From Acidithiobacillus sp. (GTDB taxonomy: Bacteria > Pseudomonadota > Gammaproteobacteria > Acidithiobacillales > Acidithiobacillaceae), in NCBI GenBank assembly GCA_028065135.1, contig JAPTWR010000065.1:1-52181 (forward strand): 52,181 bases of DNA. Direction: 5' to 3'. Positions within the stretch are counted from its first letter, which is position 1. Each line of letters begins with the position of its first letter. The translations under genes and the position numbers were made by a program. Below, in pieces: positions 4,101 through 42,041 of this stretch. Below the pieces are notes generated by a model. That model was not told the origin of the DNA and made no database searches. It saw nothing but the letters and a program-made list of their open reading frames with translations.

Positions 4101-5069
4101 TTATGCAACTCCCAATTTGGGGTTAAACGGTTTCCCCGACTTGAGGACGCCGAAAGCCAGATGCAGGAGCTTGCGCATGGCGGCGACCACCACTTGCATG
4201 GGGCGTTTGCCTCGGGCCAATAGCCGGTCGCAAAAGGATGCGATGATGGGGTTGTGCCGCTTGGCGACCACTGCCGGCAGGTAGAGGGATTTGCGCAACA
4301 AAGCATTCCCCGCCTTGGCGATGGGGGTCTTTCCTGCCCATTGACCCGACTGGCGAATGCGGGGATTGAGGCCGGCATAGGCAACCACCTGTTTGGCAGA
4401 GTGGAACCGCTCCAAGGGGCTGAGAAAGGCCAGCAAGGTGGCGGCCGTGTTGTCCCCAATACCAGGGATACTGGACAGCAACTCCTGTTGGTTTTTGAGA
4501 TCGGGGTGTTTATCGATATGGATCTCGATCTGCAGGCGTAGCATCTCGATCTGCTGATGAACAAATTGCAGGACGGCCTCCACGGACTCCCGCGCTGGCC
4601 CTGTAGCGGCTTCCAGTCGGTTGTTCTCCATCGTTTGCAGTGCCAGGAGGTCCTCCAGACGTTGAACCAGGGCCTGGAGGGTGGCGATCTCCTCAGCCGG
4701 CGGCACCCAGGGCGCAGGACGGTGCATCCGGCAATACCGGGCAATGAGCCGGGCATCGGCCTTGTCCATCTTGGCCCGGGTCAGTTCTGTCTTGCCGAAG
4801 GCATGGATCTGGGCCGGGTTGACCACGCTGATGAGGATCTGCTGTTGCGCCAGAAAGCGTGCCAGGTCCCGCCCGTAGACGCCCGTGGTCTCCATGCAAA
4901 GATGGGCTTCCTGGGCGTCGTGCCTGGTCAGCCACTCCAGGAACTGCTGATGTCCAACGGGTGTGCTGGGGAAGACCTTACTGCGATACTTGCCCTCAGC
5001 GTTCAAGAGAGCCACATCGAATTTGGTCTTGGCCACGTCGATACCAACGAATAGAGTAGGATTAGTCAT
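4101..5069 (-). CDS. IS110-family transposase (DEDD, RuvC-like plus transposase_20)
   Basis: A 322-residue recombinase of the IS110 family, which moves its element by RNA-guided recombination. The N-terminal RuvC-like domain shows GIDVAKTKFDVAL (Asp at about position 10), Glu in METTGVYG, and Asp residues in KADARLIARY. The C-terminal transposase_20 domain shows SSIPGIGDNTAATLLAF and AYAGLNPRIRQSG with the conserved Ser. Its length is normal for the family and no break is visible, so it may be active. The ATG follows AAGGAGATTGGC. On the upstream side about 215 non-coding bases separate it from an IS5 remnant. No clear inverted repeats mark the ends, as usual for the family. Confidence 0.95.
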   Translation of the reverse strand: MTNPTLFVGIDVAKTKFDVALLNAEGKYRSKVFPSTPVGHQQFLEWLTRHDAQEAHLCMETTGVYGRDLARFLAQQQILISVVNPAQIHAFGKTELTRAKMDKADARLIARYCRMHRPAPWVPPAEEIATLQALVQRLEDLLALQTMENNRLEAATGPARESVEAVLQFVHQQIEMLRLQIEIHIDKHPDLKNQQELLSSIPGIGDNTAATLLAFLSPLERFHSAKQVVAYAGLNPRIRQSGQWAGKTPIAKAGNALLRKSLYLPAVVAKRHNPIIASFCDRLLARGKRPMQVVVAAMRKLLHLAFGVLKSGKPFNPKLGVA

Positions 5070-9583: not shown

Positions 9584-11097
9584 ATGTCACTCATTGGTGC
9601 GGGATCAGATCTATTGCCACGTTTTCTCGTACCGAATCCGGGCGAAGAGTCTCTGCTGCGGCGCCATGGTCCATCCATCGCGCCGCGGGCGAGGGCATTT
9701 ACCCATCGCTGGGCAGCACTCCTGCATCAGGAGAAGAGTCTACAACCCCTGCTGCACAAGCCTTTCCTGGCGCTGGCGCTGCCACTCATAGAGGGCCATT
9801 ATGCCGCGCTTTTGGGCACAGACTATGACGCCGGACGACGGGCGTGCTTGCAGCACGCGGGCGACCTCCCGCGATCTATTCTATCGGGCTATTACCCAGG
9901 TAAACCGGATGCTGACGCATCCGCAACCCGAGTCGTCCATAGAGGATATCCTGTCCCGAGGAGTCAGCCTGATCGCCAATATCCTGCAAGCTCCCTTGGT
10001 CTGGATTGGTATTGCTCCCAATGGACAATCGGAGTTGTCCATTGCGGCTGCGGCGAGTCCTGGGGTTTCGGGCCTCGCCAGCATGCGGGTATCGGTTGAT
10101 CCTGACGTTCCAGAAGGGGCTGGACCCAGTGGGCAGTCTGTCCGTTCGGGGCAGCCTTATGTCTGCCATCGTGACGACCCGATTATGGCGCCCTGGCGGA
10201 ATCTGGCCATCGCTAACGGCATCGGGGGCTTTGCGGGTGCGCCCTTTTATCTCAATGAAGGTGACCGGGGAATCGTTTCTATTTGCCGGCGCGATGAGGA
10301 AAGCTTCCCAGAAGATGTCGTGGGCCTGATTTTCCATCTGGCCGAAGATGTCGGGACCTTTCTGGATCGGCTGTGCAACCTCTTAAATCAACTGGTGAGC
10401 AATATCCATATTGCCTTGGATGAATATCATAGCCGTCAACAATTGGCGGCTGAACGAGAGTCTCATGCTTGGCAAGCCCACCACGATTGCCTCACCGGTC
10501 TGCCCAATCGACTCGGCCTTGCCCGGCGTTTGGGCGACGCCAGCGCCCGGGCACTTCGCCATGAGCGACTGCTGGCCGTGGGGATGCTCGATCTCGATGA
10601 TTTCAAGGCCATTAATGATATCCATGGACACGCCATTGGTGATCGTCTCCTGGTGGATATGGCCGGACGCTTGAAACGGGCTCTGCGCCATACAGATTTT
10701 GCCGCGCGCCTGGGGGGTGACGAATTTGTACTGGTGCTGGAAGACCTGCAGGATCTGGGCTACTTGGAGGCGGTCATCGCCAAGGTGGGCGAGGTCCTCT
10801 GTTGGGCTGATCCAAGGGTTGGCTGTGAAAAATCTCCAGTGGCTGGCGACGACGCCACTGCTGAATACGTTGTCCTCCCCCATAACGGCCGCTATCGTGG
10901 CCTTGGGGTTGACGGGCACGACCATCGACATCGCCCATCATGCCTACCACCGGGTGTTGGAGGCCACGCTCAAAGCCTTCCGGACGGAGGGCACGGTGGA
11001 CTGGACAGTCGCCGAAGATGCGGCCGATTTCTTCCAGCAAACCCTGTTCAGCGCGATTCGTGAGACAAACGGGCACCCCCACGTTCCCACGCCCTAA
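9584..11097 (+). pseudogene. Broken GAF-GGDEF diguanylate cyclase gene
   Basis: Three reading frames in succession make up one damaged gene. The first (9584 to about 9850) encodes an unrecognised N-terminal sensor region starting MSLIGAGSDLLPRF. A shift near 9840-9870 moves to a frame encoding a GAF domain (SIEDILSRGVSLIANILQAP) and the first half of a GGDEF domain with DCLTGLPNR, an RHTD inhibitory site and an intact GGDEF. Near 10800 similarity stops before the second half of the cyclase fold, and another frame continues to 11097 with TIDIAHHAYHRVLEATLKAF. Two breaks plus loss of half the catalytic domain argue for a pseudogene. A sequencing error could explain the first break but hardly the second. 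Confidence 0.7.
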
Positions 11098-11513
11098 AAC
11101 CCTGTCAGCATAACCTCTCCCGCCCGTCGACACCCTTAATATGCCAGATATCCTCCTGCTATGTAGACCCTGTTTTCGCCAGAGATGGTTGCAACACCAG
11201 CGCCTGTATCTTTTCTGAAGCAAGTTCGCACCCACCGTGAATGCTGTGTTACGCGCGGCAACAGTAGCGTTTCAGGGAACCCATAGCAAATTGGAGCAGG
11301 AATTGTTGCGGATCCTTTACAAATTGCATTCGGCAATGACGCTTGAATCCATAAACATAACAATTAAAAACAATTAGTTACAATAGTGGCATAGGGGTTG
11401 CTATAGGAAAGGCGTCCCTCCCGAAGTTTTGGGGACGCATTAAAGCGACGATCCAGGATGATCAGAAGATCCTTCTGGAACCTTTTGGGAACACGAATTG
11501 ATTGGAGGAAGTC
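11098..11513. other. Long leader of the amyloid-like operon, no gene
   Basis: These 416 bases hold no credible gene. The part just upstream of the sigma-54 promoter is AT-rich (about 11335-11386, with AACAATTAAAAACAATTAG), as expected for DNA bent by an activator loop. A ribosome-binding site TTGGAGGAAGTC precedes the ATG at 11514. Confidence 0.5.
11387..11402 (+). promoter_or_regulatory. Sigma-54 (-24/-12) promoter of the amyloid-like operon
   Basis: TGGCATAGGGGTTGCT matches the TGGCAC-N5-TTGCW consensus with one mismatch, and GG and GC are separated by exactly 10 bases. It stands alone in a gene-free leader, 112 bases upstream of the repeat protein start, in the correct orientation. The VpsR-like activator encoded at 16958-18346 is the obvious candidate partner. 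Confidence 0.75.
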
Positions 11514-12572
11514 ATGAAAAAGTCAGCCCTTTTAGTTTCTGCATTGGCTCTTGCGTTTTCTGGTGCCGCGTTTGCTCGGGACAACGGGAATCCACCCCCA
11601 CCCCCACCCCACCATTCGGCCAAACCCGCCAAGGCCAATAGCGACGTGGTGAAGCTGGGTGTGGTTCACGGTAATTCAGTCTCTGCAACCAGTGGTACCG
11701 GGTTGAACAACAGCCAGACCAATATCGGCTCCGATGCCGCCATCAATAACCAAGCCTTTGAAAACGCGACTGGTGTCGTTTCGGTCAACCAGAACAGTGG
11801 TGCCAATGGCTTGCTGCAAAATCAGACCCAGGTGCAGGTGAATGCCGTCAGTGGTGACATCAAAGCGAAAATGGAGAGCGTGGATCTGGGTTTGGTGCAT
11901 GGAAACCGGATCGGAGTAAGCACCGACGGTGCCCAGACCAATTATAACGGCAACGCCTATCTGGGCGACCATGCCTTTGCCAACACAGCGGGTATCATTT
12001 CCCTCAACCAGAACAGTGGCGCCAACAGCCTTCTGGACAATCAGACCAACGTGCAGGTCAACGAATTGAGTCCTTGCGCCAATGGTAGCTGCTTTACCGG
12101 CAAAGTGGATTTGATCTCTTTGCAGGGGGGCGCCGTCCTGGGAAACACGGTCAACATCTCCGCTGATCCTGGGTACAACTGGTACGGTCAGAACGGTCTG
12201 ACCAATTACAATGCCAATGCCACCATCAATGGCGATACCTTCAACGGCGCATCGGGCATCATCTCGGCCAACCAGAACAGCGGCGCCAACAGCCTCCTGC
12301 AGAATCAGACCAACGTACAGGTCAGCCAAGTGGGTTCCAGCAGCGGCAACGCCTTTGGCGCGCTGGGGGGTGTAGTAGCGGGGAACGCTCTGCAGGTATC
12401 TGCCACGGGCAATCCGTGCAATCCGTGTGCATTCACCCAGGCGAACTATGCGGCTAACGCCACCATCGGTGGCAACGCTTTCCAGCATGCCTCTGGCGTG
12501 ATCGCGCTCAACCAGAACACTGGTGCCAACAGCATGTTGCAGAACCAGACCTCGATCCAGGTCAACAACTAA
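11514..12572 (+). CDS. Fap-like secreted amyloid subunit with four repeats (FapC-like)
   Basis: A 352-residue secreted protein, low in charge and rich in Asn, Gln, Gly and Ser. A signal peptide (1-21, cleavage after AFA) is followed by a run of six prolines (27-32). Four repeats cover about 45-110, 123-183, 197-270 and 280-352. Each ends in a near-identical block such as NQNSGANSLLQNQTNVQV, with an ATINGDTFNGASG-type stretch before it. Cys pairs sit in linkers (188/193 and CNPC 302-305). Such Asn/Gln repeats separated by linkers are the layout of Pseudomonas FapC, the fibre subunit. The start at MKKSALL is chosen over an ATG 12 bases upstream because GGAGG fits it. It heads a five-gene operon with a C39 peptidase. 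The amyloid role is inferred. Confidence 0.78.
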   Translation: MKKSALLVSALALAFSGAAFARDNGNPPPPPPHHSAKPAKANSDVVKLGVVHGNSVSATSGTGLNNSQTNIGSDAAINNQAFENATGVVSVNQNSGANGLLQNQTQVQVNAVSGDIKAKMESVDLGLVHGNRIGVSTDGAQTNYNGNAYLGDHAFANTAGIISLNQNSGANSLLDNQTNVQVNELSPCANGSCFTGKVDLISLQGGAVLGNTVNISADPGYNWYGQNGLTNYNANATINGDTFNGASGIISANQNSGANSLLQNQTNVQVSQVGSSSGNAFGALGGVVAGNALQVSATGNPCNPCAFTQANYAANATIGGNAFQHASGVIALNQNTGANSMLQNQTSIQVNN

Positions 12573-12647
12573 GTCACGCGATGCAAGGTGGGGGGTGCCA
12601 AAGTCTCGGCATTCCCTATTTTTACCAAGAATGTGAGGAGAGAGATC

Positions 12648-13007
12648 ATGAACATTCGCATGCGTCACTTATTCATGACGGGTATTTTGCTGTCCTGGGC
12701 ATTCGGCGCGCAAGCGGCGACCTTGCCGATGGATGGCGTATCCGCTTTGGCCTTGCTGGGTACTGCCGTAGGCACCCAGGCGTTAGTACATTCTGCGGGC
12801 AAGGCGTTGCCCAATCAGAGCTTGTCCACCCTGGTGATGAATGGGACATCAGCGGGAAATACTGTGGGTAATGGGGTCGTTACCGGTAGCAATATCATCC
12901 AGGGCGGTGCCTTCGGCAATGCCTCCGGTTTTGTAACGGTCATTCAGAATTCCGGCAATAATGTCCTCATTCAGAATGCGATGCAAATCAACCTGACCAT
13001 GCATTGA
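12648..13007 (+). CDS. Small secreted single-repeat protein (FapB/FapE-like partner)
   Basis: A 119-residue protein with a signal peptide (about 1-23, FGAQA). Its C-terminal half contains one copy of a unit related to the upstream repeats: GNASGFVTVIQNSGNNVLIQ followed by NAMQINLTMH. It could be the nucleator or minor subunit of the fibre, comparable to FapB, but it is far shorter than FapB, so the match is by repeat style and position only. The ATG at 12648 follows GTGAGGAGAGAG; an upstream in-frame ATG has no such site. The C39 peptidase gene starts 12 bases after its stop, so translation is probably coupled. Confidence 0.7.
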   Translation: MNIRMRHLFMTGILLSWAFGAQAATLPMDGVSALALLGTAVGTQALVHSAGKALPNQSLSTLVMNGTSAGNTVGNGVVTGSNIIQGGAFGNASGFVTVIQNSGNNVLIQNAMQINLTMH

Positions 13008-13019
13008 TGGGAGTTTCTC

Positions 13020-13733
13020 ATGTCTACTAAACGCTGGTTGTTGGCAATGGCTTCACTATTGGTCACGCTGGCCCTGAGTCAGGGGCAGGCCGTGGCCGAT
13101 GCTTATTTGGCAACCGCTGGCGGTCAATTCAATATTCCCGTCAAGAGCATGAATGCCATGCGCTTTCAGTCGGTGATCCATCAACAATATGACTTTAGTT
13201 GTGGATCCGCGGCGGTGGCCACCTTACTCACCTATAGCTATAACGATCCCGCGGATGAGATGAAGGTTTTCAAGTGGATGTGGGATCATGGTGATAAACC
13301 AGTCATCGAGAAGGAAGGGTTTTCCCTGCTCGATATGAAAAACTATCTGGACGCCCACGGCTTCGCCGCCAACGGCTTCCGGACTTCTTTGCGCAATCTG
13401 GCCAAGGTGAATCTGCCGGCGATTGCCCTTATCGATTTTAACGGCTACATGCATTTTGTGGTGGTGAAAGGAGTCGAGCAGGATGAGGTGCTGGTCGGCG
13501 ATCCGGCCTTGGGCTTACGCCTTATCTCCCGGAAATCCTTTGATGCCATGTGGAAGAAAAACGGGATTCTTTTTGTCATTACCAGTGGGCCGGGTATCAA
13601 GATGGCCAAGGCCTCCTTTAACAGCATTGCCGAATGGGACAAAGTACCCCGCGCACCGCTGGCTGCAGCCATGCAGCAGCAACCGTCGCTGGGTTCCTTC
13701 CTGCTCACGCTGCCTCGGGCAGGAAGTTTTTGA
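13020..13733 (+). CDS. Periplasmic C39-family peptidase (FapD-like)
   Basis: A 237-residue cysteine peptidase of family C39, the fold that cuts double-glycine leaders in bacteriocin exporters and occurs as FapD in amyloid operons. A signal peptide (about 1-26, AVA-D) sends it to the periplasm. The catalytic residues are visible: Gln55/56 before YDFSCGSAAVATLL (Cys61), His145 in GYMHFVVVKG, and Asp161 in VGDPALG. There is no ABC transporter fused to it, unlike bacteriocin C39 proteins. Two proteins encoded just downstream carry RGG motifs that resemble double-glycine sites and are candidate substrates. Confidence 0.88.
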   Translation: MSTKRWLLAMASLLVTLALSQGQAVADAYLATAGGQFNIPVKSMNAMRFQSVIHQQYDFSCGSAAVATLLTYSYNDPADEMKVFKWMWDHGDKPVIEKEGFSLLDMKNYLDAHGFAANGFRTSLRNLAKVNLPAIALIDFNGYMHFVVVKGVEQDEVLVGDPALGLRLISRKSFDAMWKKNGILFVITSGPGIKMAKASFNSIAEWDKVPRAPLAAAMQQQPSLGSFLLTLPRAGSF

Positions 13734-13763
13734 AGCATCTTAAAATAACCGGAGGAAATGATC

Positions 13764-14312
13764 ATGGATGAGTTCGCTTGCAAGTCGAAACAGTCTTTTC
13801 AGCATACCCTGATGAGTGCCGTGATCATCCTCAGCATGGCAGAACCCGCCAGTGCGTCGGTCATGCCGGTGCTCGGAATGCCGGTGCCTGTAGCTGAGTT
13901 GGCGAAATTGCGCGGAGGTTTTGAGGTCGGGGGCATGATGGTGAAGTTTGGTGTGGAGATGACCACCTATATCAATGGAATGCTGGCATCACGCTCGGGG
14001 ATCGACTCCGGCTCTAGCAGTAATAGCATCATCGCATCGCAGAATACCCGTGTTCAGCAGACCATGGTCGTGGCACAGGGAAATGGTGTACAGCAGGTAG
14101 TGCAGGTGGGAAATGCGAACCAGGTTTCCAGCAGCCTCCTCAACCAGGCCACCAGCGCCTTGGCGGTGGTGCAGAACAACCTCGATAACCAGGTGATCCA
14201 GCATGCGACCGTAATCAACCTGGATGTCAGCAACGGGATCCATACCCAGCAAATGACCCAGATTGGTCAGGCGCTGCAGCAGGGTAACATTCGGAGTTTG
14301 AACGTCCCGTAG
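13764..14312 (+). CDS. Secreted protein with double-glycine-like ELAKLRGG motif, Gln/Asn-rich
   Basis: A 182-residue protein. Residues 1-32 look like a signal peptide (TLMSAVIILSMAEPASAS). At 45-52 the sequence ELAKLRGG fits the ELxxIxGG consensus cut by C39 peptidases, followed by FEVGGMMVKFGVEMTTYING. The C-terminal half (about 95-170) is rich in Gln, Asn and Val, with QNTRVQQTMVVAQGNGVQQV and VVQNNLDNQVIQHATVINL, in the style of the fibre subunit. Start choice: an ATG lies 6 bases earlier but only 2 bases from GGAGG, so the second ATG is preferred. It may be a Fap accessory or minor subunit (FapA/FapE position). The family is not recognised with certainty. Confidence 0.72.
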   Translation: MDEFACKSKQSFQHTLMSAVIILSMAEPASASVMPVLGMPVPVAELAKLRGGFEVGGMMVKFGVEMTTYINGMLASRSGIDSGSSSNSIIASQNTRVQQTMVVAQGNGVQQVVQVGNANQVSSSLLNQATSALAVVQNNLDNQVIQHATVINLDVSNGIHTQQMTQIGQALQQGNIRSLNVP

Positions 14313-14338
14313 GCGGATAGGACGGGAAGGGGGATGCC

Positions 14339-14758
14339 ATGTTTAGGAAGATGATACGGACGACAATCGGTGCCGGGCTGGTGCTGGGAATATGGGCCTG
14401 GGCACCCGTCATGGCGGCAGAATCAGCGGGCGGTCATGACTTTCCGGCAATGCAACCTGCGGCCTTCGATAGGGGCGCTATCGTCAGCAACACCGTCTTG
14501 CGTCAAGCCCGTGGTGGGGGAATAACTGTACCCAGCTTGGCAGTCTCTGCCCATCAAATGCCGGTGGTCATGCTCTGGGATGAGTTGCCCATACCGGCCA
14601 CATCCTCCAACACCCTAGAATCGGGTGGCAATTCTCGGGGCAACACCCAAAATGGCGTCAGGCCAAACGCATCGCAGTCGTTGGTGGTAATCCTGCCCAA
14701 TTTGCAAAATCTGCCAGCGTCTGTGATGCAGACATCTGGTTCCTTCAGCGGCAACTAA
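14339..14758 (+). CDS. Secreted protein of unknown family with RGG motif
   Basis: A 139-residue protein with a clear signal peptide (1-26, ending PVMA). At 54-60 the text LRQARGG echoes the LRGG of the preceding gene product and is followed by GITVPSLAVS. The rest is rich in Ser, Asn, Pro and Leu and ends QTSGSFSGN, with no known domain seen. It lies 26 bases behind the previous gene, has GGAAGGGGGATGCC before its ATG, and is the last gene of the operon. A role in fibre secretion, processing or anchoring is inferred only from context. Confidence 0.65.
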   Translation: MFRKMIRTTIGAGLVLGIWAWAPVMAAESAGGHDFPAMQPAAFDRGAIVSNTVLRQARGGGITVPSLAVSAHQMPVVMLWDELPIPATSSNTLESGGNSRGNTQNGVRPNASQSLVVILPNLQNLPASVMQTSGSFSGN

Positions 14759-14785
14759 CCTTCTATGGAAACGGATGGAAAAGCT

Positions 14786-14804
14786 GAAACGCGTAGAGCG
14801 TTTC
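14786..14804 (+). terminator. Possible terminator hairpin after the amyloid-like operon
   Basis: GAAACGC-GTAGA-GCGTTTC forms a perfect 7-base stem 27 bases after the last stop codon. No T-run follows, so it may act as a processing or protection hairpin instead of an intrinsic terminator. Confidence 0.35.
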
Positions 14805-14858
14805 CAGAACCCGCAAACAAAAAATTATTGTCGATACATGGTGCCATAGAGAATCTCA

Positions 14859-14925
14859 AAGCTTGTCGGCTCGGCACCTTCCACGGCGCACCGGAAAATG
14901 CCAGCAAAAACGCCTCGACAAGCTT
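14859..14925. repeat. Inverted repeat with 10-base arms
   Basis: AAGCTTGTCG (14859-14868) is repeated in inverse orientation as CGACAAGCTT (14916-14925) with a 47-base spacer. The right arm is also part of a 12-base palindrome, GACAAGCTTGTC (14917-14928). It lies in the gene-poor gap between the operon and the barrel gene. It could be a protein-binding site or the trace of a lost element. Confidence 0.4.
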
Positions 14926-15035
14926 GTCTACGGTATTAATCACCGTTTTTAGGAGCCAGAACTGTCTATACACTTGCTCAATGTGTGCAGGGATCATACG
15001 CCGCTCTATTAGGTAGCTGAAAAAGGTTAAAAGGC

Positions 15036-15428
15036 ATGAATACAAATAAAACACTCCCCGCACACGCGCACCAAATACATCCATATGATCATAAAGTGAA
15101 TAGTGTTCATTTGGATTATTTCTCATCGTCAGGGACCCGGTTACTTCTCCAGGCCCCCTGCTTTGTTTTTGATGAACTCTGTTATCGCTTAGGGAATTCT
15201 TACAAGGCCAAGTGCTGGATGGCAGCGCGCCTGGAAGAGGTCTGTTCCCTGTCCCAAGATGCCATCGAGGGATATATCAACATGATGGCCGATCATCTGT
15301 TGGAAAAATGGAATCCTGGCGCGGTCCACGGCCTGGGTGCCCACCCCAGAACACAGCGTATCAAGGTATTCCAGTTTTCCATGGACGACCCGGTCAGTGA
15401 GACGGTTCGGCACGAATCCACACAGTAG
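15036..15428 (+). CDS. Hypothetical protein (130 residues)
   Basis: I do not recognise this protein. It has an AAAAGGC site before the ATG, no signal peptide and no membrane segment, and a balanced composition that looks coding, for example SYKAKCWMAARLEEVCSLSQ and GYINMMADHLLEKWNPG. The first 35 residues are His- and Asn-rich. It lies between the amyloid-like operon and the convergent barrel gene, so it could belong to the system, but nothing in the sequence shows a role. A longer minus-strand frame overlaps its first part and is less convincing. Confidence 0.45.
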   Translation: MNTNKTLPAHAHQIHPYDHKVNSVHLDYFSSSGTRLLLQAPCFVFDELCYRLGNSYKAKCWMAARLEEVCSLSQDAIEGYINMMADHLLEKWNPGAVHGLGAHPRTQRIKVFQFSMDDPVSETVRHESTQ

Positions 15429-15842
15429 CAACGCAATGAGCAAACCAAATACTGATTGCCCAATGCCGATAACCCAGACAAATAAACGCTAGTGCCAACG
15501 ATAACTGCTTTTTCGGCTGCAACGGCGTTTTGAAAATCTGGCGGTTTTATGATTCGCGGGAAACGTCGGTGGCGGGTGGCGCCGAAACATCCCAACACCC
15601 TGAGTTAACGCTGCTTCTCTTGCCTCCTTCTCAAGGTGAAACATAAGGAAGAAAGAGGCATGGCAATGCGTCATCGGTTCTGCATGGCGGCATTGATGGC
15701 AATGTGTGGGGAGTGGAACCGACCATGGTGGCCCATGGTCGACGCGCCTACTGGAGCCGCTTTCGGAGAGGGATCCGGCCGGTATTCTGATTGAGTTTCG
15801 GTCCCGAAGGTGCCTTGCGACGCAATATGTCCCCGAATGCCC
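15429..15842. other. Gap between hypothetical gene and barrel gene
   Basis: About 410 bases without a supported gene. A 44-codon frame at 15660-15794 starts after GGAAGAAAGAGGC and opens with MAMRHRFCMAALMAMCG, like the stub of a broken secreted protein, but it has no family. CCATGGTGGCCCATGG near 15722 is a local palindrome. The region separates convergent transcription units, yet no good terminator is visible. Confidence 0.35.
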
Positions 15843-16895
15843 CTAGAGGGTGTAAGGGACCCGGAGTGTGAGTTGCACATCCGGTGCCTGGCGGGTGGCG
15901 CCTACGGCCAGGTTCAGATTGATGGATGTACTCTTATTGAGGGTGTAAGACCAGCCCACCAGAAAAGACCCTACCTCCAGGGTTGTGGCCAAGGGCGGAG
16001 TAATGCCGCCTACTTTAGGCGCGCTGACGATACTTTGGTTATAGCCTAGACTAATCGACGCGCGGTCGTTTAGAGATAGGCCCGCACCAAAGCCGAAGCC
16101 GATGGCGTTACCGGGGCTAATGTAGGTGCCGGCGGCATTATGGCCAATGTTCCAGAGGTAACTGACATTCCCGTAAAAAACGGCCGGGTCAGAGGGATAG
16201 AGTACCGTGAGACTAGGCTGGACACCCCAGAAGCCTGTCCCCGTCGGTTGCTGTTCAAGAATTCCGGCCGGATAACTCTGATAGGTGGGCATGCTGAAGG
16301 GGCTACTGCCGGTCATGCTTTTTACTTGCAAATTGGCAATGTAATAGGGCGAGCCATTACCACCCTTATTGATCTGATAATGCATGGAGAGTTCAATGTC
16401 TCCCAGACCAGAACCGGTACTGTTGAATGCCTGCTGGACACCGTTGTTGGTAAGGTTTGAGACGGCGGTGTTTTGTTGCGCATAGACAAAAGGCACCCTG
16501 AGATCCATTTCCAGGCGGTTGCTCACCCCATAGCGAAAGGTGACACCGGCATAGGCGGTGTCGTTGGTGTATTGCTGGATATTTATGTTGCCAATGGCTA
16601 GTACCTGCGCAAGCACGAAACCCTGCACGGCGGCGATACTGGATGACGAATGAGTATATTGGATAAAGGGCTCAATGACGAACTTGCCTGCTGGCGTAAG
16701 CACTCCAGTGGTGCTGATGAGGGTTTCGATGGCCGGCGGACGGCTTTGTTCAGCCGGAGCTTGGCCTACCGGCTTGCTTGGCGGAGCCTCGCTCGAAGAG
16801 GCCGTATCGGCCCAGGCGGGGCTGGCGCACCACAAGGTGCCTGCCAGTATTGCGGATGCGTAGATTGTTGCTTGCATCAATCCTTGTTGTTTCAT
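15843..16895 (-). CDS. FapF-like outer-membrane beta-barrel transporter
   Basis: A 350-residue outer-membrane protein. A signal peptide (1-29, SPAWA) and a Pro/Ser-rich segment precede a barrel of alternating strands. Blocks such as SGLGDIELSMHYQIN, then GFWGVQPSLTVLYPSDPAVF, then GNAIGFGFGAGLSLNDRASI and the final PDVQLTLRVPYTL match the FapF barrel as I know it. It ends in an aromatic-Thr-Leu terminus. FapF exports the fibre subunits in Pseudomonas; here the gene is on the opposite strand from the fibre operon and directly behind the VpsR-like activator. The long coiled-coil N-terminus of Pseudomonas FapF is absent or much shortened. CCAGGAGG lies 11 bases before the ATG. Confidence 0.78.
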   Translation of the reverse strand: MKQQGLMQATIYASAILAGTLWCASPAWADTASSSEAPPSKPVGQAPAEQSRPPAIETLISTTGVLTPAGKFVIEPFIQYTHSSSSIAAVQGFVLAQVLAIGNINIQQYTNDTAYAGVTFRYGVSNRLEMDLRVPFVYAQQNTAVSNLTNNGVQQAFNSTGSGLGDIELSMHYQINKGGNGSPYYIANLQVKSMTGSSPFSMPTYQSYPAGILEQQPTGTGFWGVQPSLTVLYPSDPAVFYGNVSYLWNIGHNAAGTYISPGNAIGFGFGAGLSLNDRASISLGYNQSIVSAPKVGGITPPLATTLEVGSFLVGWSYTLNKSTSINLNLAVGATRQAPDVQLTLRVPYTL

Positions 16896-16920
16896 AATTC
16901 AAGATTCCTCCTGGTGGTAA

Positions 16921-16941
16921 TGGCTAACGGTGTTTTAGCCA
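16921..16941. repeat. Hairpin between activator and barrel genes
   Basis: TGGCTAA and TTAGCCA form a 7-base stem with a 7-base loop in the 62-base spacer. In the minus-strand transcript the T-run lies before the hairpin and not after it, so it is not a normal terminator. It may tune the ratio of activator to barrel. Confidence 0.4.
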
Positions 16942-16957
16942 AAAAGTATTAGTATGA

Positions 16958-18346
16958 TTAGTTGGTGCTGAGTGCATGCTTCTCCATGAGACGATATAGC
17001 GTGACGCGGGAAACGCCAAGCTGTTTCGATGCCAGCAAAACGCTGCCCTGGTTCTGGGCGAGAGCTGCGCGGATGGTATCGGTTTCGGCCCTGTCCCGCG
17101 CTTCGCCCAAAGTAAGTACCCACCGGGAGTTGTTTCTCTGCTCCAGTCCAAGATCGGATGGGGAAATCAGGGAGTTGTCGCACATGACCATGGCCCGGCG
17201 CACCCGATTGATCAGCTCGCGAACATTGCCCGGCCAGTCGAAGTTGTTCATGGTATGCAGAGCGTCTTTGCTGAATCCTTTTATCTTCCGTCCTTTTTCT
17301 TCGGCAAAGCGGTGGAAGATATATTGAGCTAACAGGGGCACGTCGCCGACGCGCTCGCGCAGGGCAGGCATCCTGATCTGAAGAACGTTGAGACGATAGT
17401 AAAGATCCTCGCGGAATCGACCCTCGCGAACGGCCTTTTCCAGATCGACATGGGTGGCGGCAATCACCCGCACATCCACGGTGATGTCTTCGCGACCACC
17501 GACCCGCTCTATGGTTTTTTCCTGTAGGAAGCGCAGAAGGTTAGCCTGGAGTTCCATGGGCAAATCGCCAATCTCGTCGAGAAAGAGGCTGCCACCGGAG
17601 GCGACCTCAATGCGGCCGATTTTTCGCTGGTGGGCGCCAGTGAATGAGCCCTTTTCATGGCCGAAGAGTTCGGACTGGATGAGATTGGTGGGTAATGCCC
17701 CACAGTTTACGGCGATGAATGGCCCATGGCCCCGCGAAGAGCGTTCGTGGATAGCCTGCGCGGCCAGCTCCTTGCCCGTGCCGCTTTCACCGGTAATCAG
17801 CACGGGTGCATCTACACCGGCTACCTTGCGGATTTCTTTGAAGACTTTTTGCATCTGTGGGCTGGCGCCGACCATTTCGCTTTCACCGTTACTGCGCACC
17901 TCCCCTTCTTCGGGCAGCAGCGCATCGGCGGCAATCTCTGCCATCCCCAAGGCATGGCCCAAGGTAAGCAGGAGACGGTCGGAATCGACAGGCAGGGTGT
18001 GATAGTCGTAAAATGTGGCGCTAACCAGCTCACGCAGGGGGGGGGAGTCGAGGGCATCCTTGGGAAGTAAGACGATCCAACGAATATGCCCTGCCCGGGC
18101 AATGGTGGACTCCACGCACCGGCAATTATTGATGATCTCCCGGTGATCCGGCGCGACTATACCCACCTTGAATTCTGCTGCAGACGAGAGTTTTTGTAGT
18201 TCATTAATATTTTCCGCATATCGCAGCTGCCACTCTTCGCTACACAGTCGCTCCGCCCATGGTTCTATGGTGTGTCTGGTGCCAAAGTACAGTAGTGGGC
18301 GGCTCACAACGACGGCATCTGCCCCGCAAATCTGACTGTATGACAT
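16958..18346 (-). CDS. VpsR-like sigma-54-type enhancer-binding activator
   Basis: A 462-residue transcription activator. Residues 1-150 form a receiver-like N-terminal domain of the VpsR kind (for example FYDYHTLPVDSDRLLLTLG). Residues about 158-395 are the AAA+ domain: Walker A GESGTGKE (186-193), GSFTGA (233-238) in place of GAFTGA, Walker B LFLDEIGD (254-261), and FREDLYYRLN with the arginine finger. Residues about 420-460 are a Fis-type helix-turn-helix. VpsR binds c-di-GMP and switches on biofilm matrix genes in Vibrio. Two candidate sigma-54 promoters lie nearby, before the synthase and amyloid-like operons. AGAGGAAGGAATCGAT precedes the ATG. The FapF-like gene is downstream on the same strand. 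Confidence 0.88.
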   Translation of the reverse strand: MSYSQICGADAVVVSRPLLYFGTRHTIEPWAERLCSEEWQLRYAENINELQKLSSAAEFKVGIVAPDHREIINNCRCVESTIARAGHIRWIVLLPKDALDSPPLRELVSATFYDYHTLPVDSDRLLLTLGHALGMAEIAADALLPEEGEVRSNGESEMVGASPQMQKVFKEIRKVAGVDAPVLITGESGTGKELAAQAIHERSSRGHGPFIAVNCGALPTNLIQSELFGHEKGSFTGAHQRKIGRIEVASGGSLFLDEIGDLPMELQANLLRFLQEKTIERVGGREDITVDVRVIAATHVDLEKAVREGRFREDLYYRLNVLQIRMPALRERVGDVPLLAQYIFHRFAEEKGRKIKGFSKDALHTMNNFDWPGNVRELINRVRRAMVMCDNSLISPSDLGLEQRNNSRWVLTLGEARDRAETDTIRAALAQNQGSVLLASKQLGVSRVTLYRLMEKHALSTN

Positions 18347-39286: not shown

Positions 39287-39976
39287 CTATTTCTTCTGCC
39301 ACTGACCACTGGGCGACTGGTACCAGTATCCTGCGGGTGCCTTGCTGATCCAGGCTTGGGCAAAGGTCTGCTGAATTTGCCCCGCCCACTCGGGATGACC
39401 ATTGGCATCAGCGATCTGCTGATAGAGATTACTGAGCGCCTGATTATAGCTGCTTACCAGCCCATTGAGCGGAGCCCGCTGCGGCAGCGACACGGCTGCC
39501 GCATCATGGATCGTCACCTGACCATTGGCCGTGTAACCCACCGCGCCGCTGACAAAGTAAGGATGCATTTGCGTCGCCAGTGCCTCCACCTGCGCCCGTG
39601 CCGATTGCACCCCGGGACTGGAGGCATTGAGGTTCGCGGCGGCCTCCGCCGTGCCGCTGATGGCCGAGAAGCCCATGGCCAGCAGGTAGCTGGCCGCATG
39701 GTAGGGAGATGCCATGCTCAGGGAATTCGTAGCCGGGGCAGCGGACCGGGCCGGCGCTGTCGGCGCCGGTGCCGATACTGCCGGAGCAACCGGGGCCTGC
39801 AAGGCACCCTTGGCAGCGGCCTTATACACCTCACCGACCACCTGATCCGCCAGTTTCTGGGCCGCCGCAGCCGGAAAGTAAATATTGACGGTCACGCAAG
39901 CGGACAGCGCCATAAGCAATCCCAGTGCCAGCACACTGCGCCAGCCCTGCGTTTTCAGCCAACCCTGCTTTGTCAT
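39287..39976 (-). CDS. DUF1318 (YdbL-like) lipoprotein
   Basis: A 229-residue lipoprotein with lipobox LSAC and the family start CVTVNIYFPAAAAQKLADQV. A low-complexity Ala/Pro segment (about 58-85) leads to the DUF1318 part with LNGLVSSYNQALSNLYQQIA and NGHPEWAGQIQQTFAQAW. In E. coli the smaller YdbL works with the AsmA-like YdbH and the lipoprotein YnbE in lipid transfer to the outer membrane. Here the protein follows the YdbH-like gene and combines a lipid anchor with the YdbL domain. AGGAGAG before MTKQGW sets the start. Confidence 0.8.
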   Translation of the reverse strand: MTKQGWLKTQGWRSVLALGLLMALSACVTVNIYFPAAAAQKLADQVVGEVYKAAAKGALQAPVAPAVSAPAPTAPARSAAPATNSLSMASPYHAASYLLAMGFSAISGTAEAAANLNASSPGVQSARAQVEALATQMHPYFVSGAVGYTANGQVTIHDAAAVSLPQRAPLNGLVSSYNQALSNLYQQIADANGHPEWAGQIQQTFAQAWISKAPAGYWYQSPSGQWQKK

Positions 39977-39980
39977 TTGC

Positions 39981-42041
39981 TCACTCTCCTGTACCGACTT
40001 GGGCACCACTATGCATGGCGGTTTTCAGACGCGCCAGCAATTCGTCCCAGTCCACCCGGCGATTGTACCCCACTATATCCACCCTGGGCAGCCCTTGCCC
40101 CTGAAGGATCACAAAACCCGAATCCTCTGTCCCCACTCCGGACAATTCGGCGACACCGTCCTTGAGATGCACACCCATCCCCAGGTGCGCGTATGCAAAG
40201 GTCTTGAACATCCGTAGAAACATGCCCTGAAAAAATCCGCTGATGCCGTTACCGCCGCCCAGCCTGGTAAGGCTCTGGACCGCCGCATAGCTGATTTTCT
40301 GAGACACGCCATGAACGGGAACCGTATGAAACTGCGCCTGAAAAGCCTTCGGCGACCAGTTCAGCAGGGTGAGATTTTTTACGTCACCGTTGAGCACCCC
40401 GCTGATGTAGCCAAAGTGGAAGGCGTCAGTCAAGGGCTTCAGTCGCAACCCGGAAATCCCGACGTTGGCCCGCAGCAGGGGCAAAACACCGAGGAAATTC
40501 TCAATATGCAGATCGCCCACCCGCACCTCGCCTCCGAACACCTGAGCGGAAAGCGCGCCGCTGGTGGTGATATCTCCCGCGTGATACCGCAGTTCCGGGA
40601 TGGTGGCCGATACCGTCCCGGTAAACGGCGGCCAATGCATGATCTTGGTCAATTGGGCCATGCTGACCCCCCGCAAGTCGCCGCTCATGCCAAACCCCGA
40701 CCGGGGCCCTGCCCAACGTGCCGCCAGATGCCGAAAATGCAGCTCGCCCCCCAACAGGGCCAGGGTGAAGGGCTGTTGCAACTGAAAGCCCTGGGGATTG
40801 AGGACCAGCTCTACATGCAGCGGACCCGCAAGAATATGATAGAGTTCCGCGGACTGCCAGCGAAGCACCGCATCAGAGGTCTTGCCGGTACGACTCCAGG
40901 CACCCCGGCTATTCACGCCCGTCACCGCAAGATGTCCCCTGGAACTGGAAAGAGCCGCGTTGCGCAGATCCCATTTCAGCGCACTCAGACCACCCTCTCC
41001 CGCCACGGAAAAACGCACGTGCCCCGAGGCCTGCAACTGGGCCGCGAGACCGCCGGGAGGAGCCAGCGGTTTAATCCAATTCGCATACAGGGGCGCCATG
41101 GCTACATCCATATTCCGGATCTGCCAGCGCAGCACCCCGCCCCGAGTCGGCCGGTACAACGCAAAACCGCCCCGTCCGAGGCCGGGCCAGCGGATGCTTC
41201 CCTGGTCCAGTTGCCAGGCCTTGGCCGTCTGGCGCCAGCGGGTTTGTATCCGCAGCGCTGCGGCGGGGGCTGTCCAGTACCATGGACTCCAGAGGACACC
41301 CCCCTGGGTCCAGCGCATCCGGGCGGTGCCGTGCCATTGCCCGGTATATGCACCGTCCCCCTGGAGTTGCAATGCGACACCCTGGGCGGCCTGCAAACCG
41401 TCCGGGCTACTGAACTGGAGCTGGCTGCCCTGCAATTCAAAGGCTATCTGACGCGCCTTTGCCCAGTTTGCGCCCCGCGCCTGGACTTGCCACCGGGCCT
41501 GCCCCGAGGTCTGCCAAGTGGCAGGCAGCAGGGTGAAGGCGCGCACCAGACCGGCAACCGGCAGGCTGCCCGCAGCCGTCAGATGCCACTGTCCGGCGGC
41601 GGTACTTTGCACCTGCAGACGGGCGCTGCCGAATTGCGCAGCGCGCAATGCCAGCATGGCTTGCCCACTGCCGCCCACCCGCCGCAACTGTACATGCCCA
41701 TCGCCATGCAGTGCGCCCCACGGGCTGTCCTCCACCGCCAGATGAGCTTGACGACACGCCCAACCCCGCGCCGTCTGGAGCCCGCATTGCAGCCGGGCAT
41801 GCCGCCAGAGTTTGCGCTTGCCCGCTTGCGCGACGCCCGCCGCCAGGCTGAACTGATCGCCCTGCGTCGATGTGGTCAGCGTCGCGTGCAAGCGCTGCGC
41901 CGTCCAGCCCGTTCCGCTTATCCGTGCGGCGCTGATTTCCAGAATTTGTGCCCCGGCCACACCACTGATAGCGAGCCCCAGGCACAGCGTCATAGACCAG
42001 CGGATGGCTATCGGCAAAGTTCTGCTGCGCCCGTGCATCAT
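39981..42041 (-). CDS. AsmA-like YdbH-family protein
   Basis: A 686-residue envelope protein anchored by an N-terminal hydrophobic segment (SMTLCLGLAISGVAG). The rest is mostly beta-strand, with repeated short strands of AsmA type, and the C-terminal part shows the YdbH-like block (DVKNLTLLNWSPKAFQAQF, then VQSLTRLGGGNGISGFFQGM). YdbH proteins form hydrophobic grooves between inner and outer membrane and help phospholipids cross. The start lies at MMHGRSRTL, 4 bases beyond the cysM stop; the second Met is equally possible. A DUF1318 lipoprotein follows 4 bases downstream, which supports the assignment. Confidence 0.78.
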   Translation of the reverse strand: MMHGRSRTLPIAIRWSMTLCLGLAISGVAGAQILEISAARISGTGWTAQRLHATLTTSTQGDQFSLAAGVAQAGKRKLWRHARLQCGLQTARGWACRQAHLAVEDSPWGALHGDGHVQLRRVGGSGQAMLALRAAQFGSARLQVQSTAAGQWHLTAAGSLPVAGLVRAFTLLPATWQTSGQARWQVQARGANWAKARQIAFELQGSQLQFSSPDGLQAAQGVALQLQGDGAYTGQWHGTARMRWTQGGVLWSPWYWTAPAAALRIQTRWRQTAKAWQLDQGSIRWPGLGRGGFALYRPTRGGVLRWQIRNMDVAMAPLYANWIKPLAPPGGLAAQLQASGHVRFSVAGEGGLSALKWDLRNAALSSSRGHLAVTGVNSRGAWSRTGKTSDAVLRWQSAELYHILAGPLHVELVLNPQGFQLQQPFTLALLGGELHFRHLAARWAGPRSGFGMSGDLRGVSMAQLTKIMHWPPFTGTVSATIPELRYHAGDITTSGALSAQVFGGEVRVGDLHIENFLGVLPLLRANVGISGLRLKPLTDAFHFGYISGVLNGDVKNLTLLNWSPKAFQAQFHTVPVHGVSQKISYAAVQSLTRLGGGNGISGFFQGMFLRMFKTFAYAHLGMGVHLKDGVAELSGVGTEDSGFVILQGQGLPRVDIVGYNRRVDWDELLARLKTAMHSGAQVGTGE

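Follow-up and report, generated by a model that had tools for sequence, protein, structure and literature searches.

A probable Fap-like amyloid secretion locus in Acidithiobacillus sp. with a candidate double-glycine leader on its FapE homologue

Described Fap systems and the gene content of the locus

The closest described system is the Pseudomonas Fap system (fapABCDEF), in which the C39 peptidase FapD and the FapF barrel are accompanied by FapE with its leader motif and by the repeat subunits FapB and FapC. Secretion of FapC, assayed in E. coli, was reported to depend on FapD and on the catalytic Cys of this peptidase; of the Fap proteins of Pseudomonas sp. UK4, FapE is described as the sole one fully processed at the N-terminus (PMC5557850). 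Published statements describe the FapD substrate as “unclear” (2017, PMC5557850) and as “yet to be determined” (2018, PMC6173800); in a 2025 review, FapE and FapF are still the proteins that FapD is “thought to” process (PMC12822426). According to the 2013 survey, fapF is separate in 4 of 16 genera, Acidithiobacillus is among the genera departing from the single fap operon, and Acidithiobacillus has FapC with 4-8 repeats and FapB with two, the Vibrio FapB having one (PMC3792158). FapF and FapD of F. caldus were detected in vesicles (PMC10853474).

In the 52,181-nucleotide stretch of Acidithiobacillus sp. DNA analysed here (“the window”), a sequence-only reading had placed the parts of a Fap-like system at 11387..16895. 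Each of these components was recovered in place; the activator at 16958-18346, lying outside that range, also belongs to the locus, which as a whole occupies 11387-18346 with C-B-D-E-X2 on the plus strand and the activator and F on the minus strand:

11387..11402, plus strand: sigma-54 type -24/-12 site TGGCATAGGGGTTGCT, agreeing at 10/11 consensus positions; the related loci L013 and L094 have a site at the equivalent place
11403..11513, plus strand: 5' leader of C, its sequence kept in L013 and L094
11514..12572, plus strand: C, FapC-like exported protein with four N/Q-rich repeats (repeats; match to the NCBIfam FapB model)
12648..13007, plus strand: B, FapB-like small exported protein with a single repeat (phmmer relatives lie immediately 5' of D in many loci)
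13020..13733, plus strand: D, FapD-like C39 peptidase with C61/H145/D161 and a signal peptide judged by eye (profiles, alignment)
13758..14312, plus strand: E, FapE homologue with the double-glycine leader ...VAELAKLRGG|FEVGG... (alignments, hhalign, model)
14339..14758, plus strand: X2, “VLWDE” protein with leader motif LRQARGG, a possible second FapD substrate
15843..16895, minus strand: F, FapF-like outer-membrane barrel with a short N-terminal part (profiles, PDB matches, model)
16958..18346, minus strand: VpsR-type sigma-54 activator with VpsR, AAA+ (GSFTGA) and Fis-type HTH domains (Pfam)

Signal peptides were assessed by eye. The nearest named relative is an Acidithiobacillus MAG, and the comparison of synteny that had been proposed revealed the same gene arrangement in relatives. 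Of five relatives compared, the near-identical genome G001 alone aligned over the whole of the gap between the strands (14759-15842, about 1 kb); L013 and L094 aligned in short pieces, and the L094 contig terminates within F.

Relation to canonical Fap and to Fil

The barrel F matches the NCBIfam FapF model NF058560 (3.7e-38, 131.4 bits, below the cut-off of 700) and the PDB FapF structure 5o67 (3.8e-31). In its structure model (pLDDT 81), a prediction that the sequence-only reading had recommended, the top 18 PDB matches are all FapF (best E 1.4e-18), the next fold being the COG4313 protein 4rl8. The peptidase D matches Peptidase_C39 (5.9e-21), and an alignment of 10 sequences, the window's among them, shows no variation at Q55, C61, H145 or D161, which bears out the triad originally read from the letters; its match to the FapD model NF058616 (140.6 bits, E 4.2e-41) is below the cut-off of 330. 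Both profile relationships on which the initial reading had staked its case, of the barrel to FapF and of the peptidase to FapD, are thus present, though below the equivalog cut-offs.

The four-repeat protein and its single-repeat partner were likewise seen correctly. The repeat cores of C (351 aa, read from codon 2) lie at residues 91-108, 164-181, 252-269 and 332-349; B contains a single repeat of this type. C matches the FapB model NF058557 over three stretches (5.7e-14, 52.2 bits, below the cut-off of 190), and PF27129 occurs as a precomputed annotation on relatives of C. No match of C to the FapC model NF058558, of E to the FapE model NF058559, or of B to any Pfam or NCBIfam family was found; across the ten window proteins scanned, the FapC and FapE models gave no match up to E 1 (for the activator, among the best 25 of 29 matches), whereas L141, a Pseudomonas-type locus, passes both. 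No window protein matched a FapA model, of which the NCBIfam library may hold none, and X2 is a possible FapA counterpart by a short motif only.

In the FapD tree the window type falls into a well-supported sister clade (“clade II”, 81/105 tree rows), the window being represented by the G001 copy (100% identical D) and the root being the midpoint. Since the scores are far under the equivalog cut-offs and FapD belongs to a sister clade, the original term “Fap-like” holds, while the assignment to Fap itself fails. In the wide sense the locus has what characterises Fap, namely a FapF-type barrel fold and a Cys-His-Asp C39 peptidase beside FapE; it is not a single fapABCDEF operon, as F is on the other strand. 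It further differs from Pseudomonas Fap in the Gly instead of Lys/Arg at P1 of the leader, in the single-repeat B, in the activator accompanying F on the opposite strand and in the sigma-54 site before C. The differences of arrangement stressed earlier are real but not new: the split fapF, the small FapB and extra FapC repeats have been known since 2013 (PMC3792158).

This raises the question of whether the locus is simply the ordinary Acidithiobacillus Fap already described (Dueholm 2013), with its 4-8 FapC repeats, two-repeat FapB and non-single-operon arrangement (PMC3792158), to which the four repeats of the window C would conform. We consider this rather unlikely. Nine other Acidithiobacillaceae loci from eight genomes (L099-L106, L109) have a Pseudomonas-type clade I FapD (99/99 support), and the genomes G043 and G141 each have one FapF of a 355-392-bit tier together with one of the window's tier. 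The clade I loci of this family resemble the window in the long N/Q-rich C, the VLWDE protein, the C39 peptidase and the barrel on the other strand (7/9); they differ in the FapD clade, in the FapE motif G[KR]G, in a GKG-bearing VLWDE protein located upstream of the subunit genes, and in C, which in L105 scores 221 bits with the FapC model, above the cut-off of 195.

Export with C39 processing could also build a non-amyloid surface structure such as a Fil-like pilus, or serve small-molecule transport via a COG4313-type channel. The putative Fil pilus shares the C39 peptidase and the barrel, D matches FilB (6.2e-34) and F matches FilC (1.2e-7), many F relatives are annotated PF13557 or named “transporter”, and 4rl8 follows FapF in the fold search. 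Nevertheless, the Fil scores are below cut-off (117.6 of 475 bits for FilB, 31.4 of 630 for FilC), F is far nearer to FapF than to FilC or 4rl8, C has FapB-type repeats, and none of three Fil-type loci examined has a convincing FapE, so that this explanation is rather improbable.

Leader motifs and the FapD clades

The C39-type leader motifs on E and X2 are the most informative feature of the locus. They had been overlooked when the proteins at 13758-14312 and 14339-14758 were listed, correctly, as two further Gln/Asn- or Ser-rich secreted proteins. The most conserved block of E is LxxxRG[G/K/R]|[F/Y]: among 113 aligned E proteins L/M occupies -7 in 113, Gly-2 is kept in 112, and Arg-3, with the top information of all columns, in 103. 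P1 follows the FapD clade, being Lys/Arg in 21/21 clade I proteins and Gly in 91 and Ala in one of the other 92. FapE homology between the clades is centred on this block (hhalign 95%, 3.6e-8, 48 vs 8 sequences), and in the E model, of low confidence (mean pLDDT 64), a helix stops at RGG and a strand starts directly after. Judged from these alignments, the block is likely to be the FapE cleavage site, which is the new point of this analysis. Against it count the low pLDDT, the 12 of 80 non-redundant clade II E proteins that fail the P1 pattern (10 fail a looser one) and the yield of 16 proteins among the 7996 candidates at which a word-based whole-database search with the E alignment was capped.

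The VLWDE protein, identified in nine clade I loci, has GKG in 9/9 of them and GG in the three non-redundant clade II Acidithiobacillaceae loci, so that within this family it switches P1 as FapE does. X2 is possibly a second FapD substrate; its relative in L095 has no motif. B might be a more general FapD substrate. B candidates were identified for 71 of 122 D genes; the 65 B proteins shorter than 260 aa include 36 with RGG, 13 with R-A forms, six with other R-G forms and 10 with none, and the window B is among these 10. Such locus counts are not independent, because resemblance to the window's FapD guided the choice of loci, many of which are related to one another. A search for an acidic FapD residue that would explain the basic P1 of clade I gave a few clade-specific columns (57 and 63, next to the catalytic Cys), and no clear pocket was apparent.

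The main FapD target might instead be the FapF linker, an alternative put forward in PMC5557850 and listed together with FapE in the 2025 review (PMC12822426). Of the FapF proteins, 43/68 in clade II and 5/15 in clade I have a GG in their N-terminal part; on the other hand, the C39-like motif is present in 16/83 non-redundant FapF vs 91/101 FapE (the searched stretches differ in length), and the window FapF has no GG ahead of the barrel. We regard the linker as quite unlikely to be the main target.

Bacteriocin ABC transporter peptidases of the PCAT1 type resemble D in their C39 domain and in a leader of ELxxLxGG type, whereas D is free-standing, carries a Sec signal (by eye) and is not fused to an ABC transporter. 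One can suggest, at about even chances, that there are two Fap export classes defined by peptidase specificity: clade I, cutting after RG[K/R] or [V/C/I]G[K/R], and clade II, cutting after RGG, the latter being widespread, largely unrecognised and switched by sigma-54 and VpsR-type activators. In clade II, the bacteriocin-type leader of FapE, as well as that of the VLWDE or B protein, would then represent a periplasmic “key” opening the FapF barrel. If so, the classes should be orthogonal, and a P1 swap should change which peptidase cuts. The change of P1 along with the FapD clade in two different proteins opens the FapD substrate question to direct biochemical testing. If the proposed site is right, the double-glycine principle by which C39 peptidases serve bacteriocin export would also operate beyond the inner membrane.

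Promoter, activator and proposed mechanism

Scored against the -24/-12 consensus of sigma-54 promoters, a site precedes C in 35/58 clade II loci, compared with 0.076 expected per locus, and in 3/21 clade I loci; outside clade I, sites are rare elsewhere (3/92 before F, 6/60 before activators). The activator, correctly recognised earlier as VpsR-like, has Sigma54_activat (4.9e-74), VpsR (1.6e-17) and HTH_8 domains, the loop G[AS][FY][TS]GA is kept in 53/58 activators, and RpoN was found in 8/8 genomes searched, including G001. Sigma-54 control, already proposed, thus gains strong support at the comparative level, and we infer that the locus depends on RpoN, whereas the VpsR of V. cholerae is reported to work without it (PMC5552954). 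A VpsR-domain activator is also situated near fapF in L141, and clade II loci often have a convergent layout like that of the window.

The reading frames of the locus are open, the triad is intact, and the genes are retained in two further genomes (FapD identity 95% and 88%) with promoter and leader conserved, which makes a fap operon that is decaying or has lost part of its genes most unlikely, in spite of the unrecognised FapA and of the 83% identity between E and a protein named A. ferrivorans, a species whose FapB/C and FapE matches were called likely remnants of a partly deleted operon (PMC3792158).

We consider it probable that the locus encodes functional-amyloid secretion of the Fap type, in a class that is sister to canonical Fap and would work as follows. 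The VpsR-type activator, probably responsive to c-di-GMP, would turn on the sigma-54 promoter ahead of C-B-D-E-X2, and all products would leave the cytoplasm by Sec. In the periplasm D would cut the bacteriocin-type double-glycine leader off E at ELAKLRGG|F, and probably also X2 at LRQARGG|G; mature E would license the barrel, through which C as the main and B as the minor subunit would pass unfolded and form amyloid on the cell surface. The FapF fold and sequence of the barrel, the invariant peptidase triad, the P1 switch in two proteins, the promoter excess before C, the activator loop and RpoN, and the neighbouring EAL, GGDEF and PilZ genes argue for this mechanism; the motif-free B and X2 relative, the E exceptions, the RpoN-independent V. 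cholerae VpsR, the related loci and the midpoint root weigh against it.

Such a sister class extends the known reach of the Fap amyloid family, and together with the sigma-54 promoter it may explain some FapD/FapF profile matches dismissed as non-specific in the 2013 survey. The locus probably serves to make sticky amyloid fibres at the cell surface. Judged from its genus, the acid-loving host probably grows on sulfur and sulfide minerals, a setting in which attachment is important.

The 5' leader of C matched no Rfam family; a c-di-GMP riboswitch was rejected there, folding being within the shuffle range (z -0.75), and leader hairpins across 36 loci were abandoned as inconsistent (median z -0.67, 12 below -2). 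Genes neighbouring the locus encode EAL, GGDEF-EAL, PilZ-cellulose-synthase and GGDEF proteins.

Parts of the locus and the barrel protein

The system in the window is of the Fap type and belongs to a sister class (clade II in the FapD tree) of the canonical, Pseudomonas-type loci (clade I); fibre formation, leader cleavage and sigma-54 dependence are only predicted. Its parts, whose signal peptides were assigned by eye, form two convergent gene sets:

11387–11402, plus strand: −24/−12 type site
11514–12572, plus strand: C, FapC-like protein with signal peptide
12648–13007, plus strand: B, FapB-like single-repeat protein with signal peptide
13020–13733, plus strand: D, FapD-like C39 peptidase with signal peptide
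13758–14312, plus strand: E, FapE homologue with signal peptide
14339–14758, plus strand: X2, "VLWDE" protein with signal peptide
15843–16895, minus strand: F, FapF-like barrel, 62 bp beyond the activator
16958–18346, minus strand: VpsR-type sigma-54 activator

C carries four repeats of the NQNSGANSLLQNQTNVQV form. D matches the Peptidase_C39 profile (E 5.9e-21) and the curated FapD model (4.2e-41; 140.6 bits, below the cut-off of 330), F matches the FapF model (3.7e-38; 131.4 bits, cut-off 700), and C scores 52 bits with the FapB model (cut-off 190); B, E and X2 gave no match to the curated Fap models. D is 100% identical to that of the nearest genome (G001) and 95% identical to that of the nearest named relative, an Acidithiobacillus MAG (locus L013). 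The approximately 1 kb separating the gene sets (14759–15842) aligns at full length with G001 only (99%) among the five relatives compared, and in short pieces with L013 and another related locus, L094.

By sequence, F matches just four PDB entries at E values of up to 10, all of them FapF (best 3.8e-31). With the F model (built from 41 sequences, mean pLDDT 81), all of the top 18 Foldseek matches are FapF, from 1.4e-18 downwards, and the next is the COG4313 channel 4rl8. The sequence-only reading held that the barrel lacks the long coiled coil, and this is borne out for the window’s protein, in which the first modelled strand starts at residue 72. FapF proteins outside clade I are often longer, with a median of 141 residues (range 3–335) before the last 300 versus 50 in the window’s F, the start being taken as the first possible codon and so possibly placed too early. 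Of the relatives of F, many have PF13557 (in one case under the name “Putative MetA-pathway of phenol degradation”) or bear the name “transporter”, and two are called “acetate kinase”; such names of FapF-like proteins are probably misannotations.

Two FapD clades and the recurrence of the layout

In the maximum-likelihood tree of 105 FapD proteins (midpoint root only; the window’s D was omitted as a copy of that in G001), clade I (21 rows, support 99/99) groups the loci of Pseudomonas type with the other canonical ones, nine of its rows being from other Acidithiobacillaceae (family assigned by inference), and clade II (81 rows, support 99/98) includes G001, L013 and L094. Three rows of Fil, a putative pilus system with a C39 peptidase and a barrel, are placed next to clade II on a long branch, a position that is unsure. 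Across 299 genomes from the phylum, among them the nearest one, FapF scores form tiers: about 760 bits in 5 genomes, 355–392 in 8, 127–171 in 9 including G001, and then weaker ones; G043 and G141 each have one FapF of the 355–392-bit tier and one of the 127–171-bit tier. Together, the clade memberships and the tiers indicate that clade II is no local oddity of Acidithiobacillus.

A scan with a six-sequence FapD alignment, covering one genome per species in 84,980 species, yielded at least 564 confirmed relatives; the best 80 loci (L013–L092) were retained, and 38 neighbourhoods from further genomes were added. A FapE-like candidate lies just downstream of 115 of the 122 FapD-like ORFs, the other seven including two Fil-type loci as well as L042 and L073, in both of which an over-long ORF had given an E match in an earlier search. 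FapF is found within 7 kb in 90/96 clade II and 19/21 clade I judgeable entries. By a broad profile, an activator lies within the same distance in 49/62 and 13/21 judgeable entries, respectively, and the VpsR domain exceeds the Pfam cut-off in six of seven activators checked. Of the 62 clade II loci whose flanks are long enough, 21 have the window-type layout, with F and the adjoining activator on the opposite strand; the design is therefore recurrent and no chance feature of this genome. Four loci (L028, L056, L077 and L152) have two FapD genes each, which suggests a duplicated clade II gene set.

A leader motif in FapE and other candidate substrates

The best-conserved block of the 113 distinct FapE candidates aligned (E < 0.01, < 450 aa) is a leader motif, the form of which is that of the C39 leaders of bacteriocins. 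Position −7 is Leu or Met in all 113 (Leu in 107), Gly(−2) is present in 112, and Arg(−3), present in 103, has the highest information of all columns (4.13 bits). P1, the residue at −1 of the proposed cleavage site, is Gly in 91, Arg in 12, Lys in 9 and Ala in 1, and is followed by Phe (80) or Tyr (15); the 21 proteins with Lys or Arg at P1 are precisely the 21 clade I FapE. Direct pattern search found the motif in 21/21 clade I and 70/80 non-redundant clade II FapE, and the strict form [LM]xxxRG[GKR][FY] in 60 of these 80, versus a rate of 0.0004 in shuffles. In a profile comparison, the E proteins of clade II match the FapE of clade I (95%, 3.6e-8) over 38 columns that include the leader block. 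In the model of the window’s E (mean pLDDT 64), the helix at 43–50 stops at RGG and strands run from 53, a change which is only suggestive. A word-based search with the E alignment in a large collection of proteins gave only 16 among 7996 scored, a figure that does not tell how widespread E is.

X2 is a member of a small “VLWDE” family, which by pattern search of the loci occurs only in Acidithiobacillaceae and, once (L095), in one other family of their order; no leader motif was seen in the L095 protein. The motif of this family ends with GKG in nine clade I loci; in X2 and its counterparts in G001, L013 and L094, RGG closes the motif ahead of the next residue. FapE of the same loci has G[KR]G (clade I) or RGG. 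Thus, P1 in two different proteins changes with the peptidase clade, which is the pattern expected of substrates. RGG is present in 36/65 B proteins (< 260 aa) and absent from the window’s B; a C39-like motif occurs in 16/83 FapF, the other proposed target.

In Dueholm 2013 (PMC3792158), fapF is separate in 4/16 genera and fapA absent in 6/16; Acidithiobacillus is among the genera without a single operon and has 4–8 FapC repeats and a two-repeat FapB. The same survey reports 1594 FapD and 217 FapF profile matches versus 70 and 68 in Fap systems, concludes that larger families exist, and judges the FapB/C and FapE matches of A. ferrivorans to be leftovers of a deleted operon. This judgement merits re-examination, since the window’s E shares 83% identity with a protein under the name A. 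ferrivorans. A 2018 review (PMC6173800) places fapD next to fapF in five more phyla and calls the FapD substrate “yet to be determined”. A 2017 paper (PMC5557850) reports complete N-terminal processing in FapE alone among Fap proteins; FapE was suspected there from GG/GA motifs, yet Fap proteins were said to be without canonical C39 sequences. Within the accessible parts of the open-access literature, preprints aside, we found no earlier description of the FapE leader site or of the sister class.

Putative promoter, activator and possible cyclic di-GMP control

Sites that agree with the consensus at 9 or more of its 11 positions were counted from −350 to +30 of the predicted C start, related loci being counted separately. 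In clade II, a −24/−12 site precedes C in 35/58 loci, 25 of them with at least 10 positions, the expected numbers per locus being 0.076 and 0.013, respectively; in clade I, it does so in 3/21, one with at least 10. Among the loci of either clade having at least 350 nt of upstream sequence, 38 of 71 have the site, and outside clade I it precedes F in 3/92 cases and activators in 6/60. The G[AS][FY][TS]GA motif is kept in 53/58 clade II activators, and RpoN was found in all eight genomes searched. An rpoN mutant of P. fluorescens is described in PMC8202526 as having lower fap operon expression. Upstream of C lie EAL, GGDEF-EAL, PilZ-bearing cellulose synthase and GGDEF genes. Taken with the regulatory evidence, these neighbours therefore make c-di-GMP control of the locus a fair inference.

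In the GAF-GGDEF gene at 9801–11063, the GGDEF match ends at profile position 93 of 161 and the remaining frame is unlike the domain; the gene, a neighbour of the cellulose synthase, may encode a disrupted diguanylate cyclase. An IS110-type transposase (4101–5069, minus strand) lies between the two EAL-domain genes upstream of the cellulose synthase. The 111-nt leader from the −24/−12 site to C (11403–11513) is strongly conserved in L013 and L094; Rfam gave no match for it, and its folding energy is not unusual. An 11/11 match to the −24/−12 consensus (TGGCACTGGGATTGCT) is located at 39915–39930 on the minus strand, within the ORF 39287–40009 (DUF1318).
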